Of a DNA stretch of 64,000 nt, positions 16,462 through 21,476 are shown piece after piece. The stretch's first letter is position 1, and each line of letters opens with the position of its first letter. Origin of the DNA: Nocardioidaceae bacterium (GTDB taxonomy: Bacteria; Actinomycetota; Actinomycetes; Propionibacteriales; Nocardioidaceae). Where the stretch lies: NCBI GenBank assembly GCA_017744365.1, contig JAGIBL010000001.1, positions 1 through 64,000 of the forward strand. Direction: 5' to 3'. The notes beneath the pieces are model-generated. The model saw nothing but the letters and a program-made list of their open reading frames with translations, did no database searches and was not told the origin of the DNA. Made by a program: the position numbers and the translations under genes.

Positions 16462-18045
16462 TCACAGCAGGCCGAGCAGCAGGCTGTCGGAGTTGTTGCG
16501 CAGGTCGGGGTCCTCGACCTTGTCCGGGACGGCGACCTCGGCCATCGCGGAGACCGGGAGCCCCTGCAGCTTGAACTTCAGGGTGCCGTCGGCGCCCACC
16601 GTGCAGATCATCTTGAGGCCCTGCTGTGCACAGGTCCCGGCCTTGCCGGCGGTGCGTGCCGCGGTCGGCGCCGTGCTCAGCGGCTCCAGGGTGCCACCGA
16701 GGACCTGCAGGCTGATCGTGGTCAGCTGTCCGGCCGGGACGCCGGTGACGGTGGCCTCCAGGTTGCCCAGGGTGCCGCTGTTCGGGTCGAGCAGGCCGAG
16801 CCCGCCGCGGAAGGCGAGCTGTACCCGCATGTCGGAGCGCGGCGTGACCGGCGGACTCGTGGGCGGTGTGGTCGGGGGCGTCGTCGGCGGTGTGGTCGGC
16901 GGCGTCTGCGGCTCGGTGACCGGCGGCTTCGGGGTGCTCGACGGTGTGGTCGGCACCGGGGTGCCCGGGCCGCTCGACGGCGTGCCGCCCGGGTTGTCCG
17001 GGGTCGCCACCGGCGGCTCGACCGACGGCGGTGGCTGCGTGGGCTTGGGCGGTCCGGGGACCTGGGTGCTGATGCTCGGCGGCGGGCCCTCCGCGGTGGG
17101 CGGCGTCGAGCCGCCTCCGGTGACCGCGAGCGCGATCGCGGTCAGGGTGGCCACGCCGACCGCACCGGCGACGCCGGCGACGACCTGGCCGTTGGCCTTG
17201 GCGGTGTCGCGCAGCCGGATGATCGCGGCGGCGAGCGCGCTGTTCGGTCCGGCGGATGCGGCCGAGAGGTAGCCGGTGGCGGCACTGCCCAGCACCAGCG
17301 GGCCGATCAGGCCGGACAGCGAGGCGTTGACCTCGGTGAGCTCCAGGTAGGCGGCCGTGCAGCTGCGGCAGCCGTCCAGGTGCGCCTCGACCTTGTTGGC
17401 GTCCCGGCGGGACAGGCCCTTGCGGACGTAGGCCCCGAGCCGGTCGTGGGTCCAGCGGCACTCCTCGCCGGCGAGGTCGGCGGCGTGCATCTGCAGGTAC
17501 GCCTGGCGCAGGCCCTCGCGGGCGCGGTAGGCGAGCGCGGAGACCGCGTTCGGGCTCATCCCGAGCAGCGGTGCCACGTCGGCCGGCTTCTGGTTCTCGA
17601 TCTCCAGGTGCCACAGCACCAGCTGCCAGCGCTCGGGCAGGCTCAGGAAGGCCTTCGCCGCGGCAGCGCCCTCGAACTCGGCGAGCGGGACGTCGGTGAA
17701 CTCCTCGCCCGGGTCGTAGGGCGTCAGGTCGTCGGTCGGGGTGGCCCGGGCCGTCGAGCGGATCTTGTCGACGTGCAGCCGTCGTACGGCGGTGAGCAGG
17801 TAGGCCCGGAAGGCGACGTCCGGACCGCCACCGCCGAGCAGGACGTTGAGCACCTTCGCGAAGGCCTCGGAGACCAGGTCGTCCGCGTCCGAGGGCGACA
17901 CCAGCTGCCGGGCGAGCCGGGTGGCCGCGTCCCGGTGCCGGGCGAAGAGGTCGCCGTACGCCGAGACGTCGCCACCGCGGACGCGCGAGATCAGCTCGGC
18001 GTCGCTGGCATCGCCCCGGCGGGACTGCAGATCGATATCGCTCAT
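16462..18045 (-). CDS. ECF sigma factor fused to a zf-HC2 anti-sigma domain, membrane helix and Pro/Thr-rich exterior
   Basis: A 527-residue protein. Residues about 25-95 form sigma region 2 (SDADDLVSEAFAKVLN) and about 130-185 region 4 (LPERWQLVLWHLE, GMSPNAVSALAYRAREGLRQAY). A zinc anti-sigma domain follows, with H-x3-C-x2-C at His222, Cys226 and Cys229. A membrane helix lies near 285-308, then a long Pro/Thr-rich stalk (about 309-410) and a beta-rich C-terminal domain with two Cys. Sigma factor, its inhibitor and a presumed external sensor are thus one chain. Release could need proteolysis or a conformational change; that is inference. A divergent GGDEF-like gene lies across a 255-bp promoter region, and aroA follows. 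Confidence 0.85.
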   Translation of the reverse strand: MSDIDLQSRRGDASDAELISRVRGGDVSAYGDLFARHRDAATRLARQLVSPSDADDLVSEAFAKVLNVLLGGGGPDVAFRAYLLTAVRRLHVDKIRSTARATPTDDLTPYDPGEEFTDVPLAEFEGAAAAKAFLSLPERWQLVLWHLEIENQKPADVAPLLGMSPNAVSALAYRAREGLRQAYLQMHAADLAGEECRWTHDRLGAYVRKGLSRRDANKVEAHLDGCRSCTAAYLELTEVNASLSGLIGPLVLGSAATGYLSAASAGPNSALAAAIIRLRDTAKANGQVVAGVAGAVGVATLTAIALAVTGGGSTPPTAEGPPPSISTQVPGPPKPTQPPPSVEPPVATPDNPGGTPSSGPGTPVPTTPSSTPKPPVTEPQTPPTTPPTTPPTTPPTSPPVTPRSDMRVQLAFRGGLGLLDPNSGTLGNLEATVTGVPAGQLTTISLQVLGGTLEPLSTAPTAARTAGKAGTCAQQGLKMICTVGADGTLKFKLQGLPVSAMAEVAVPDKVEDPDLRNNSDSLLLGLL

Positions 18046-18300
18046 TTGTCTAGATAACGGTGCAAGTAGGGAAGGGTGACGTCATCGTGACACGACCGGG
18101 CTCACCAGGGCGAACCTTGGCCAAACTGGCACGAATCACCCGCGTGTCGAGCGTGCAACTGGCTTAGACCAGTGGGGTCCCGATTGAGGAAAATGTTCCG
18201 AAATCGCGTCATGAACCGCGCCCCGCGTCGTTTCCTGCCTGAGTTCGGCAACGGGGGTGCCGAACCCACGAGGGGAAAGCTGGATGAGGAAGGAGTGGTG

Positions 18301-19041
18301 ATGGGCCTCTTCGCGACCAAGGCGACCAGGGCTGCCGCCACCCCCGGCAAGAGCCAGGAGATGCCCGAGAGCCTGCGGCAGTCGCTGCCCGCACGCTTCG
18401 AGGCAGTAGGGGAGGCTCTGCTCGCCGGTACCGACGTCCATGCCGCCTGTGCAGTGGTGGGCCGGGACCTGGCCCGCGACGGGATCGACCTGAGCGAGGC
18501 GCTCCACGGTCTCCGGTCCACCTTTGCACTGGTGGTACGACGCGAGCCCGACTTCGACTCCACCGAGGCGCTCGGCGTCGCGTGGAGCGACGAGACGCTG
18601 GGCTTCCTGCACCAGGTCTCCTGCGAGAACCCGCTGACCGGGCTGGCCACGCTGGCGCACCTGCGTGCCCGGGTCGCCGAGATCAACCGGGCCGCCGAGG
18701 AGTACGGCGCGGACGCCGTACCGGAGCACGTGCTGGTGGTCATCGACCAGCCCACCTACCACCGGGACGAGAGCCTCAACCGCGCGCTCACCATGGCCCG
18801 GCTGGCCGACCGCGCCCGGATGGTCTTCGCCGGTGCCGAGACGATCGGCGAGGCCACCCCGAGCCGGTTGCTGGTGCTGGCCGAGCGCAACGAGACCCTG
18901 GGCAACCGGATCGCGGTGCTCAACGACCTGATCGCCGCCGGGACCCCGGTCGGCCGCCCCACCGCACGGGTGTGGATCGAGGGAGTGCCGACCACGCCGG
19001 CCGCCTCGGCCGCCGTGCTCGACGAGCTCGCCCGGTCCTGA
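18301..19041 (+). CDS. Cytoplasmic protein with possible degenerate GGDEF domain
   Basis: A 246-residue protein with no membrane segment. Residues about 100-246 contain ENPLTGLATLAHLRARVAEI, which resembles the DPLTGLxNR start of GGDEF domains, then VLVVID and later SRLLVLAERNETL where GGDEF would normally sit. The catalytic GGDEF residues are absent, so it should not make cyclic-di-GMP. This assignment is tentative. The ATG at 18301 is chosen for its AAGGAG five bases upstream; in-frame codons back to 18172 lie in the divergent promoter region. The neighbouring divergent gene is the sigma/anti-sigma fusion. Confidence 0.6.
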   Translation: MGLFATKATRAAATPGKSQEMPESLRQSLPARFEAVGEALLAGTDVHAACAVVGRDLARDGIDLSEALHGLRSTFALVVRREPDFDSTEALGVAWSDETLGFLHQVSCENPLTGLATLAHLRARVAEINRAAEEYGADAVPEHVLVVIDQPTYHRDESLNRALTMARLADRARMVFAGAETIGEATPSRLLVLAERNETLGNRIAVLNDLIAAGTPVGRPTARVWIEGVPTTPAASAAVLDELARS

Positions 19042-19067: not shown

Positions 19068-19832
19068 ATGTGTGGCCGGTATGCCTCGAGCGTGGACCCC
19101 GAGGACATCGTCGAGGAGTTCGAGCTCCATACCGCGCTGCCCGACCTGCCCCGGCTCGAGCCCGACTACAACGTCGCGCCGACCAAGGAGGTCTACGCGG
19201 TCCTCGAGCGGCCGCCGCGCCGGGAGTCGCCGGAGGCCCCGGAGCTGCCCGCCGAGCGCCAGCTGCGGATCCTGACCTGGGGCCTGGTGCCGTCGTGGGC
19301 CAAGGACGTCAAGATCGCCAGCCGGCTGATCAACGCGCGGATGGAGACGATCGCGGAGAAGCCGGCCTTCCGGCGGGCCTTCGAGAAGCGCCGGGCGATC
19401 CTGCCCGCGGACGGCTACTACGAGTGGTACGTCACCGAGCAGCTGACGAAGGCCGGCAAACCGAAGAAGCAGCCGTTCTTCATCCGCCCGAAGGACGGCT
19501 CGATGCTGGCGATGGCCGGCCTCTACGAGCTCTGGCGCGACCCGGACCGCGCCGACGACGACCCGCTGCGGTGGAAGTGGACCAGCACGGTCATCACCAC
19601 CACGGCCACCGACGACCTCGGCCGCATCCACGACCGGATGCCGCTGATGCTGCCCCGGGACGCGTACGACGCGTGGCTGGACCCGACGAACACCGACAAG
19701 ACCGAGCTGCTCGGCCTGCTGCGGCCGGCGGTGCCCGGCCAGCTGGAGGCGTACCCGGTCTCGACGCTGGTCTCCAACGTCGAGAACAACGGTCCCGAGC
19801 TGGTCGAGCCCCTGCCGCTGGAGGACCTGTGA
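19068..19832 (+). CDS. SRAP (YedK/HMCES) abasic-site DNA-protein crosslink protein
   Basis: A 254-residue SOS-response-associated-peptidase protein. It begins Met-Cys-Gly-Arg-Tyr; Cys2, exposed after Met removal, forms the thiazolidine crosslink to abasic sites in single-stranded DNA. Further family motifs are YNVAPT, WGLVPSWAKD, NARMETIAEKPAFR, GYYEW and IHDRMPLML, which carries the active-site His. It protects replication from abasic sites. TACCCT at 19055-19060, seven bases before the ATG, indicates a leaderless transcript. The following hydrolase gene overlaps by four bases. Confidence 0.93.
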   Translation: MCGRYASSVDPEDIVEEFELHTALPDLPRLEPDYNVAPTKEVYAVLERPPRRESPEAPELPAERQLRILTWGLVPSWAKDVKIASRLINARMETIAEKPAFRRAFEKRRAILPADGYYEWYVTEQLTKAGKPKKQPFFIRPKDGSMLAMAGLYELWRDPDRADDDPLRWKWTSTVITTTATDDLGRIHDRMPLMLPRDAYDAWLDPTNTDKTELLGLLRPAVPGQLEAYPVSTLVSNVENNGPELVEPLPLEDL

Positions 19833-20467
19833 CCGCTGAACGGATGGTGCCGACCCCGCAGGGGGACGCCCGGCTGGTGACCCACCGCGCCCGAACCCCG
19901 GTCGCCACCCTGGTGCTGACCCACGGCGCCGGCGGCGGCATCGACGCGGCCGACCTGGTCGCGCTGGCCGCCGCGCTGCCCAAGCACGGGATCAGCGTCA
20001 CGCTGGTGGAGATGCCCTGGCGGGTGGCCGGCAAGAAGCTCGCCCCGCGCCCGGAGCTGATCGACCAGGCCTACCGGATCGTGCTCACCGCGGTGAAGCC
20101 GCGCACCCCGCTGGTGGTCGGGGGCCGTAGCGCCGGCGCCCGCTCGGCCTGCCGGGTCGGTGCCGAGCACGGCGCCGCCGGGGTGGTGGCGCTGGCCTTC
20201 CCGCTGCACCCGCCCGGCAAGCCGGACTCGTCGCGGATCGAGGAGCTGGAGCGGGCCGGGGTGCCCGCTCTCGTGGTCCAGGGGGAGCGGGACCCGTTCG
20301 GGACGCCGGAGGAGTTCCCCGCCGACGTCGACCTCGCGGTGGTGCCCTCGGCGGACCACGCCCTCCGGGTACCCAAGAAGGCGCCCGTGACCCAGGAGGA
20401 GGCGCACGCCATCGTGGTCGAGGCCGTCCTGGAGTGGATCGTCCGGGAGGTCGTGGGAATCTCCTGA
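19829..20467 (+). CDS. Alpha/beta-hydrolase, KANL3/Tex30-like
   Basis: A 212-residue small alpha/beta hydrolase. The nucleophile elbow reads GGRSAGAR, the acid lies in GERDPFG and the His in SADHALR, a complete triad. The N-terminal LTHGAGGG oxyanion loop matches the KANL3/Tex30 and dienelactone-hydrolase-like group. The substrate is unknown. The GTG overlaps the SRAP stop (GTGA), so the two genes are coupled. The -35 element of the downstream sigR promoter lies inside its last codons. Confidence 0.83.
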
Positions 20468-20481
20468 ACGGCGTGCGTGTT
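20456..20481 (+). promoter_or_regulatory. SigR-type autoregulatory promoter (sigRp2-like)
   Basis: GGAAT at 20456-20460 and GTT at 20479-20481 are separated by exactly 18 bases, the consensus of Streptomyces SigR promoters. Transcription should begin near 20488, giving a leader of about 70 nt before the sigR ATG. A second, housekeeping-type start is suggested by TACCCT at 20546-20551. Confidence 0.8.
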
Positions 20482-20559
20482 GGGAGAATCGTGCTCGCCG
20501 TACTCGACCGTCCCACGTCAGTCCCCGCGGTTGACGGTGCGCCGGTACCCTGGGGTGCG

Positions 20560-21207
20560 ATGACCGAGTCTGCTGACACCCCTGTCGAGGAGCCCACCGA
20601 GGCCCCCGTCGACCTGGCGACCGAGACCGAGGCGGAGCGCCAGCTCCGGTTCGAGACCGACGCCCTTCCCTACCTGGACCAGCTCTACTCCGCGGCGATG
20701 CGCATGACGCGCAACCCGCAGGACGCCGAGGACCTGGTGCAGGAGACCTTCGCGAAGGCGTTCGCCGCGTTCCACCAGTTCAAGCCCGGGACCAACCTGA
20801 AGGCCTGGCTGTACCGGATCCTGACGAACACGTTCATCAACACCTACCGCAAGAAGCAGCGCGAGCCCCAGCAGTCGATGGCCGAGGACGTCGAGGACTG
20901 GCAGCTGGCGCGCGCGGAGTCGCACACCTCCGGCGGCCTGAAGTCGGCGGAGATGCAGGCGCTGGAGCACCTCCCGGACTCGGACGTCAAGGAGGCCCTG
21001 CAGCGGCTGCCCGAGGACTTCCGGCTCGCGGTCTACCTCGCCGACGTCGAGGGTTTCCCGTACAAGGAGATCGCGGAGATCATGGACACCCCGATCGGCA
21101 CCGTGATGTCCCGGCTGCATCGCGGCCGCCGCCAGCTGCGCGAGATGCTCTCGGACTACGTGCGCGACAACGACCTGCTTCCGTCCGCCTCCCGGAGCGC
21201 CTCATGA
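20560..21207 (+). CDS. sigR: Redox-stress ECF sigma factor SigR/SigH
   Basis: A 215-residue sigma factor of the SigR (Streptomyces)/SigH (Mycobacterium) group, which drives thiol and heat stress genes. Region 2 contains [43 protein letters not shown]-type sequence and region 4 contains [44 protein letters not shown]. Its anti-sigma factor gene follows with an ATGA overlap. Two promoters are visible: a SigR-type one (20456-20481) and a TACCCT hexamer eight bases before the ATG. An in-frame GTG at 20491, after a GGGAG, could give a form extended by 23 residues, similar to the long unstable isoform known in Streptomyces. Confidence 0.93.
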
Positions 21208-21476
21208 GCCACCACGAGCACGACAGCACCGACTGTTCGAAGGTCATCCACCAGATCCTGACCTTCATCGACAACGAGCTCGACGACGCCGACTGCTCGG
21301 TGATCCAGAAGCACCTCGACGAGTGCGGCCCCTGCCTGGCCCGCTACGACCTCGAGCGGACCGTGAAGTCGCTGGTGGCGCGGTCGTGCTCGGAGAAGGC
21401 GCCTGAGGAGCTGCGCGAGAAGGTCATGGTGCGGATCCGCCAGGTGCAGGTGACGATCACCGAGTCCGAGGGCTGA
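21204..21476 (+). CDS. rsrA: Zinc-containing redox-sensing anti-sigma factor RsrA
   Basis: A 90-residue ZAS-family anti-sigma factor. Cys11, Cys31, His37, Cys41, Cys44 and Cys62 all occur at the positions reported for Streptomyces RsrA. His37, Cys41 and Cys44 form the H-x3-C-x2-C motif. In that family reduced, zinc-bound RsrA holds SigR, while oxidation forms a disulfide, expels zinc and frees the sigma factor. The ATG overlaps the sigR stop, ensuring balanced synthesis. Confidence 0.94.

Follow-up and report, generated by a model that had tools for sequence, protein, structure and literature searches.

Genes and features at the locus

The stretch of DNA analysed here, referred to as the window, comprises the first 64,000 nucleotides of contig JAGIBL010000001.1 from a Nocardioidaceae bacterium, a soil actinobacterium. 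Within it, a gene for a GGDEF-like protein and a gene for an ECF sigma factor fused to an anti-sigma domain lie head-to-head, followed on the GGDEF side by an SRAP gene:

16462 to 18045, minus strand: sigma/anti-sigma fusion gene, 527 aa, ECF sigma plus zinc-finger anti-sigma domain
18046 to 18300: intergenic region between the GGDEF gene and the fused sigma gene, 255 bp, head-to-head
18301 to 19041, plus strand: degenerate GGDEF gene, 246 aa, ATG at 18301 and stop at 19041
19068 to 19832, plus strand: SRAP (YedK/HMCES-like) gene, Pfam SRAP E 3.3e-73

The span 18046-19041, to which an earlier note on this DNA had drawn attention, is made up of the intergenic region and the gene, and is thus a promoter region plus the gene behind it. 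The note had described a gene divergent from the fused sigma factor across a 255-bp shared region, and its coordinates are exact. The longest start-codon ORF of the GGDEF gene opens upstream, at 18172; we chose the start at 18301 because a purine-rich stretch, ggaaggagtggtg, directly precedes this ATG and because the resulting N-terminus is conserved in close homologues. No membrane segment is predicted in the product (best 19-residue Kyte-Doolittle mean 1.37), in agreement with the soluble protein that the note had proposed.

The SRAP gene starts 26 bp 3' of the GGDEF gene and lies downstream on the same strand in 72/75 loci of the Nocardioidaceae locus set; in the window's lineage the two genes are probably on one transcript. 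Three genes downstream of the GGDEF gene, at 20434-21473, the window encodes another sigma factor together with its own anti-sigma gene, of zinc-finger type. We take the two to be a SigR/RsrA-like pair, and the sigma gene stays close by in most of the longer Nocardioidaceae loci.

The fused sigma factor exceeds the Pfam cut-offs for Sigma70_r2 and zf-HC2 (residues 196-229), with Sigma70_r4_2 sub-threshold, and over residues 29-182 it is above the cut-off of TIGR02937, the general NCBI model for ECF sigma factors. One hydrophobic segment near residues 288-306 is followed by a proline-rich stretch and a C-terminal outer domain, and the chain as a whole (sigma2, sigma4, zf-HC2, membrane segment and proline-rich extension) is like that of ECF52 and ECF53 proteins; no C-terminal carbohydrate-binding domain was found with Pfam at E 10. 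The window's genome has five fused-sigma matches, the partner of the GGDEF gene included. Paralogues on three other contigs (C11, C9 and C8; loci L139-L141) are 46-50% identical to the partner, and within the 7 kb examined at these loci there is no pseudo-GGDEF gene.

A GGDEF fold with a ruined signature

The GGDEF-like protein can be divided into two domains, the second of which carries the motifs discussed below:

18358 to 18621, plus strand: N-terminal helical domain, about residues 20-107 (AlphaFold2 models; fold searches weak)
18604 to 19038, plus strand: GGDEF-like domain, about residues 102-246 (profile matches and structural comparison)
18628 to 18645, plus strand: NPLTGL opening motif, residues 110-115 (52-homologue alignment)
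18856 to 18870, plus strand: former GGDEF signature, T-P-S-R-L, residues 186-190 (hhalign and 52-homologue alignment)

The window protein by itself matches no Pfam or NCBIfam family even at E 10. When 52 homologues were scanned member by member, the Pfam and NCBIfam matches were weak, being GGDEF-like wherever more than one member matched and belonging to unrelated families where single members matched here and there. PF00990 (GGDEF) matches 5/52 homologues at E up to 1 (best 6e-4), the window protein not being among the curated-family matches, and the weak NCBIfam matches with several members are SiaD (12 of 52), DibA (4), GGDEF (2) and DgcN (2). The profile of the 52 sequences aligns with 15 bona fide GGDEF domains, taken from the window's genome and its relatives, at an hhalign probability of 95.5 (E 1.3e-8); in this alignment CEDPLTGL falls on xxDxLTGL, and the ETI...R stretch on D...GGDE. 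Among the solved structures of the PDB, the profile matches FimX best, through its degenerate GGDEF domain (E 0.0068), after which come three other diguanylate cyclase or GGDEF proteins (E 0.17-1.5), interspersed with unrelated chains.

An AlphaFold2 model made from six sequences, of modest confidence (mean pLDDT 64.6), gives the GGDEF-like domain the order alpha-beta-alpha-beta-beta-alpha-beta-alpha, which is the GGDEF order minus the last strand. The earlier note had suggested checking a predicted structure against GGDEF folds, and this led to GGDEF-domain proteins rather than to an unrelated fold: they fill the 50 VIA-align rows listed (Z 9.1-11.2, rmsd 2.8-3.9, 117-136 residues aligned) and the top rows of Foldseek (best E 0.012, none below 0.001). 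Sequence, profile and predicted structure together establish a GGDEF fold for the modelled protein, which is almost certainly a degenerate member of that group.

The alignment of the 52 homologues has a core, SCEDPLTGLAS, and six invariant residues (Gly61, Pro83, Trp95, Cys108, Thr113 and Pro230). The DxLTGL-type opening motif is kept, as NPLTGL in the window protein; its first position, residue 110, is N in the window and D in 46/52, and its Thr is present in 52/52. The GG(D/E)EF signature with its catalytic Glu is absent from the window protein, which has T-P-S-R-L in its place, and Arg189, at the position of the catalytic Glu, is Arg in 49/52 homologues. The note's description of a degenerate GGDEF protein with a DPLTGL-like opening and no catalytic GGDEF therefore fits both the window protein and its relatives. 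Elsewhere in the active site, the first Gly of the signature is still Gly in 31/52, and position 149, in the place of the metal-binding Asp of the first strand, is Glu in 26 and Asp in 20 of 52. In the inhibitory I-site (RxxD), with the register read by eye, the place of the Asp is taken by Glu180 (Glu in 46/52), and no Arg is kept at the Arg position.

Since neither the I-site nor the GTP-site motifs are kept, canonical binding of c-di-GMP or GTP is doubtful. Judged from these residues, binding of c-di-GMP at a canonical I-site is unlikely and diguanylate cyclase activity very unlikely, and it is highly probable that the protein is a non-catalytic pseudo-diguanylate cyclase. Cys108 (window 18622-18624), two residues ahead of (D/N)PLTGL, is invariant in 52/52 homologues, and we know of no role for a cysteine at this position. 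The fixed Arg189 and the invariant Cys108 suggest that the site has been reused rather than left to decay.

Folded alone, the N-terminal domain reaches a mean pLDDT of 73.7. Its best VIA-align match has a Z of 5.2 (Cre recombinase) and its best Foldseek match an E of 4.1, and because these searches are so weak we claim no solved relative. Five low VIA-align rows are helical domains of cobalamin proteins (Z 3.8-4.2), which we mention as a lead only. At another locus (L134, 2339-3070, minus strand), a protein that shares mainly the N-terminal helical domain (37 bits) is divergent from a paralogous fused sigma gene, an arrangement which hints that the link to the sigma factor may run through the N-terminal domain rather than the GGDEF part.

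We also considered whether the protein might be a fragment of a PucR/CdaR-type regulator, with an RsbRD_N-like helical domain and a GGDEF_2 domain but missing the helix-turn-helix. In Pfam scans GGDEF_2 matches 4/52 homologues (best 5.4e-4) and RsbRD_N one of the 52 (0.033), as such an origin would predict. However, PF00990 matches just as strongly, in five homologues, the NCBIfam models matched weakly by several members are those of c-di-GMP enzymes, and the Thr of xPLTGL is universal; furthermore, the chain stops after the GGDEF-like domain, with no helix-turn-helix or other DNA-binding domain behind it in the sequence or the model. We regard a PucR-type origin as quite improbable and have set it aside. 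RsbRD_N was also looked for in seven genomes, the window's own and those of six relatives, and turned up in none of them.

Conservation of the divergent pair

Homologues of the GGDEF-like protein are present in 94/149 genomes sampled from the family, the window's own included. In the order sample, 89/196 genomes pass E 0.001, some of them with weak matches to seemingly ordinary GGDEF proteins; in the class sample, 19/246 pass 1e-10, again including the window's own, and 8 of these lie outside the window's order. An alignment search of the phylum sample found 2/296 genomes, the window's own and one of its family. The loci collected from these searches (117 rows) reduce to 97 distinct sequences: 71 from the 97 family-sample matches, 8 from the 38 first copies in a large-genome genus, g28, 5 second copies from the same genus, 5 order-sample loci and 8 class-sample loci.

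By script, 86 of these 97 distinct homologues are divergent from a fused sigma gene, although the genomes are related and such counts are not independent. Three more are divergent by other evidence: L057, which the script did not score because its start is misplaced, is divergent when the locus is read and has the promoter box described below; L106, which has a weak sigma match, is likewise divergent on reading; and L051, cut by a contig end, shows a divergent sigma fragment. The earlier note had asked whether the divergent pair is conserved, and far from being absent, the linkage is the prevailing arrangement.

In L053 the gene is in tandem with the sigma gene, on the same strand, one copy having been inverted yet remaining adjacent with its promoter kept; in L068 the sigma gene lies about 14 kb away; and in L071 the gene is convergent with a paralogous sigma gene. 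The five second copies in g28 (L089-L093) have no sigma gene within the 10 kb examined. Downstream of two of them (L089 and L092) are genes that we named by eye as a von Willebrand-domain protein and a protein kinase.

In many Nocardioidaceae loci the whole stretch rsgA-aroA-sigma-GGDEF-SRAP-sigR is collinear. The pair is also kept in 8/8 loci from four other families of the class (in one with a weak sigma match), and within the 4.8-10.5 kb examined these loci showed neither SRAP nor aroA nor any of the other neighbours. Conversely, four genomes (L119, L120, L121 and L123) have the sigma orthologue with no GGDEF gene beside it, so that sigma faces SRAP; the protein is thus not needed for the sigma factor to persist.

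A conserved promoter-like motif faces the GGDEF gene

The intergenic region carries a motif with the layout of an ECF-type promoter:

18206 to 18234, plus strand: ECF-type promoter facing the GGDEF gene, GCGTCAT at 18206-18212, 16-bp spacer, CGTTTC at 18229-18234

The motif was found by aligning 15 intergenic regions, which yielded a GCGTCAT block, 16 bp and CGTT. Its exact form, GCGTCAY-N16-(C/T)GT, is present in 81/86 divergent regions versus 3/1720 dinucleotide shuffles, and in 67/71 when the 15 discovery regions are left out. Of the regions that lack it, L013, L023, L043 and L085 are one base off each, and in L070 the box runs into the beginning of the protein match and so is cut off. On a looser 11-point score, 66/86 regions score 11 and 20/86 score 10, whereas shuffles reach 11 in 4/860 and at least 10 in 109/860. 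Ties in spacing were settled for 16 in this scoring; when the spacing was rechecked without the tie rule, 16 was the sole best in 67/86 regions, tied in 18 and beaten in 1. The information content is 1.8-2.0 bits at six positions of the first box and 2.0 at the GT of the second, and stays below 0.7 over most of the spacer. Boxes near 2 bits per base around a variable spacer are what would be expected of a promoter, and are not explained by shared ancestry alone.

The promoter also stays with copies of the gene that have been uncoupled from sigma. All five g28 second copies, with no sigma gene nearby, have GCGTCAT-N16-CGTCTCAG, and a perfect motif lies upstream of the copy whose sigma gene is some 14 kb away, of the tandem copy and of the copy at the contig end; the motif is absent from L071 (convergent, paralogous sigma) and L106 (weak sigma match). 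Within g28 it lies 191-410 bp before the protein match in 37/38 genomes, and the 38th (L085) has one base of the -10 box changed. In two of the four genomes from which the GGDEF gene is absent (G071 and G089), a strict motif is found 86 and 85 bp from the start of the sigma match, pointing away from sigma and to SRAP.

The promoter retained at uncoupled copies is the strongest evidence that we have. Given a promoter of the same layout at nearly all divergent homologues and at unlinked copies, the gene would be the best-conserved member of the regulon that we found. It is very probably the core target of the sigma factor, and the motif data give good reason to believe that the divergent sigma transcribes it. 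That the protein could be a target of the sigma factor, as the earlier note suggested, gains strong support from a predicted promoter that faces the gene in 81/86 regions. As pairing and matching promoter recur together across many related bacteria, the two genes probably work together.

The sigma-facing motif and the wider regulon

On the opposite strand, a weaker copy of the motif faces the sigma gene:

18052 to 18082, minus strand: candidate promoter facing the sigma gene, ACGTCAC, 16-bp spacer, CGTTAT, 10/11 pattern positions

This copy, with the same spacing, occurs in 39/86 regions at 55-112 bases before the sigma match, a distance window that was fixed after the data had been seen, compared with 20/1720 shuffles; it is missing or weak in about half of the regions. 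In the window it ends beside the sigma start codon, which would make the transcript nearly leaderless. A similar motif faces the sigma gene at one of the paralogous loci in the window's genome (L140).

The strict pattern GCGTCAY-N16-CGTYNC has four sites in the window's genome, one of which is the promoter of the GGDEF gene, and its reversed control has one. Given the three other sites, the regulon would not be the GGDEF gene alone. One of them (L156; genome G000, contig C7, 581153-581181, minus strand) is located 163 bp upstream of a 77-aa zinc-ribbon-like gene that is divergent from a gyrase/topoisomerase B-like gene, all named by eye, and may be a true promoter. Strict sites average 2.91 per genome in genomes with the gene and 1.09 in those without, a comparison in which the first figure takes in the gene's own site and the reversed-pattern control (0.22 and 0.29) is imperfect.

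Other genes, too, are preceded by the motif in genus g19. Since so short a sequence may turn up by chance or be read by a different sigma factor, we leave these sites out of our model. Two strict sites recur 3.4 kb apart in six g19 genomes; in L189, L190 and L191 the genes behind them encode a 195-aa protein and a McrB-like AAA ATPase (named by eye), and it is possible that such paired sites are further targets of the sigma factor, tied to defence or DNA handling. In five genomes (L192-L196) the motif precedes a protein with an anti-sigma-like, membrane-anchored look, presumably DUF5667-like. The spacer at these sites contains CGTAAC, which we take to resemble a BldN-type -35 box, so that another sigma may act there. 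In L197, L198 and L199 the motif begins 118 bp upstream of a dihydroorotate dehydrogenase gene (named by eye). Finally, the other recurrent match in g28 has a nearly constant spacer and may be conserved coding sequence.

Proposed function

Based on these comparisons we can offer an outline of how the pair might operate. The fused sigma would be held at the membrane by its own zinc-finger anti-sigma domain until a signal from outside releases the sigma part; the release would probably be proteolytic, following the scheme proposed for ECF48, ECF52 and ECF53 (PMC8999054). The freed sigma would then transcribe the pseudo-GGDEF gene, and probably its own gene too. The pseudo-GGDEF protein would act without catalysis, through partner binding, its likeliest partner being the sigma factor or its anti-sigma part, which would close a feedback loop. 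Taken as a whole, the explanation that we favour, with some reserve, is that the pseudo-GGDEF protein is a member of the sigma regulon that acts non-catalytically, likeliest by feedback on sigma. The feedback step taken by itself, which leans on analogy, is a tentative proposal. More doubtful still is the fullest form of the idea, in which the dead cyclase is both the core output and a feedback regulator of a self-inhibited membrane ECF sigma, setting how long sigma stays free, perhaps through a ligand at a site rebuilt around Arg189 and Cys108.

The main competitor is that the protein is a downstream effector, induced by the sigma factor but acting elsewhere, for example as a scaffold or as the nucleotide sensor that the earlier note had considered, and leaving sigma untouched. 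The second copies that keep the promoter with no sigma gene near suit an effector as well as a feedback partner, sigma orthologues persist in genomes that have no GGDEF gene, and a set of strongly kept residues (Cys108, Arg173, Arg189, Arg196 and Glu227) could form a binding site. Yet the canonical site motifs for c-di-GMP and GTP are not kept, and a near-constant head-to-head placement over large distances suggests more than membership of a regulon. We would put an effector role at somewhat short of an even chance, about as likely as feedback, with the unlinked copies favouring the effector somewhat.

Two further readings would loosen the tie between the neighbours altogether. The promoter might be read by another ECF sigma, the divergent one being a mere neighbour: there are several paralogous fused sigmas per genome, the motif alone does not tell which of them reads it, and genomes without the GGDEF gene still exceed the reversed control in strict sites (1.09 versus 0.29 per genome). 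Against this, pair and promoter travel together across families, the sigma gene is itself faced by a matching motif, and strict sites are commoner where the gene is present, even if that count includes the gene's own site; we consider such a reading improbable. Alternatively, the gene order might simply be inherited with no functional link, as the collinear Nocardioidaceae stretch and the relatedness of the genomes would allow, but four other families keep the pair joined at loci that, over the stretch examined, showed none of the flanking genes, the copy inverted in L053 has remained adjacent with its promoter, and unlinked copies keep theirs. Inheritance without function thus seems very improbable.

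Actinobacterial fused ECF sigma factors have been little characterised so far. With a precise promoter and one dominant target available from comparative data, signal, sigma and output could be studied here with a single reporter. If the combined reading of core output and feedback were true, the pair would represent a class of signalling systems whose sigma factor produces a dead second-messenger enzyme on demand.

Comparison with known systems

What is new here is a conserved ECF-type promoter and a degenerate GGDEF protein whose promoter and location tie it to a fused ECF sigma/anti-sigma factor. The combination had appeared undescribed to the earlier note, and in the open-access literature that we searched we found no paper on such a pair; the main ECF classification paper lies outside that coverage, so an earlier mention is possible. 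With FimX and other degenerate GGDEF domains the window protein shares the GGDEF fold and a ruined signature. FimX carries further domains, including an EAL domain, whereas the window protein has a helical domain in front only. Among sigma factors, those of ECF41 type have a SnoaL-like extension and not a zinc finger with a membrane anchor, and their promoters read TGTCACA-N16-CGTC; the 16-bp spacing and a CGTC-like -10 box are shared with the motif described here, but the -35 box differs.

Closer in architecture are ECF52 and ECF53, which likewise combine sigma domains, a zinc finger, a membrane segment and a proline-rich outer part in one actinobacterial protein, and for which autoregulation has been put forward as possible (PMC5826349 and PMC8999054). 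The fused sigma of the window differs from ECF52 in having no carbohydrate-binding module. SCO4117 is described as the first ECF52 member to be studied, its promoter signature being still theoretical (PMC5826349); the signature proposed there, CSGYN-17bps-SRHA, differs from the GCGTCAY-N16-YGT found here, and the word GGDEF is absent from the main text of that paper.

The nearest functional precedent is RmdB of Streptomyces, whose inactive GGDEF domain binds sigma-WhiG and keeps the anti-sigma RsiG off (PMC13232838). As in our locus, an inactive GGDEF domain is tied to a sigma/anti-sigma switch in an actinomycete; however, RmdB has a working EAL domain and targets sigma-WhiG, which has a separate, c-di-GMP-dependent anti-sigma, RsiG (PMC13232838). 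The window protein is a stand-alone pseudo-GGDEF protein, and its sigma is of ECF type and fused to the anti-sigma. If this dead GGDEF protein does bind its sigma, GGDEF domains would have been turned into sigma-factor regulators a second time, independently of RmdB.
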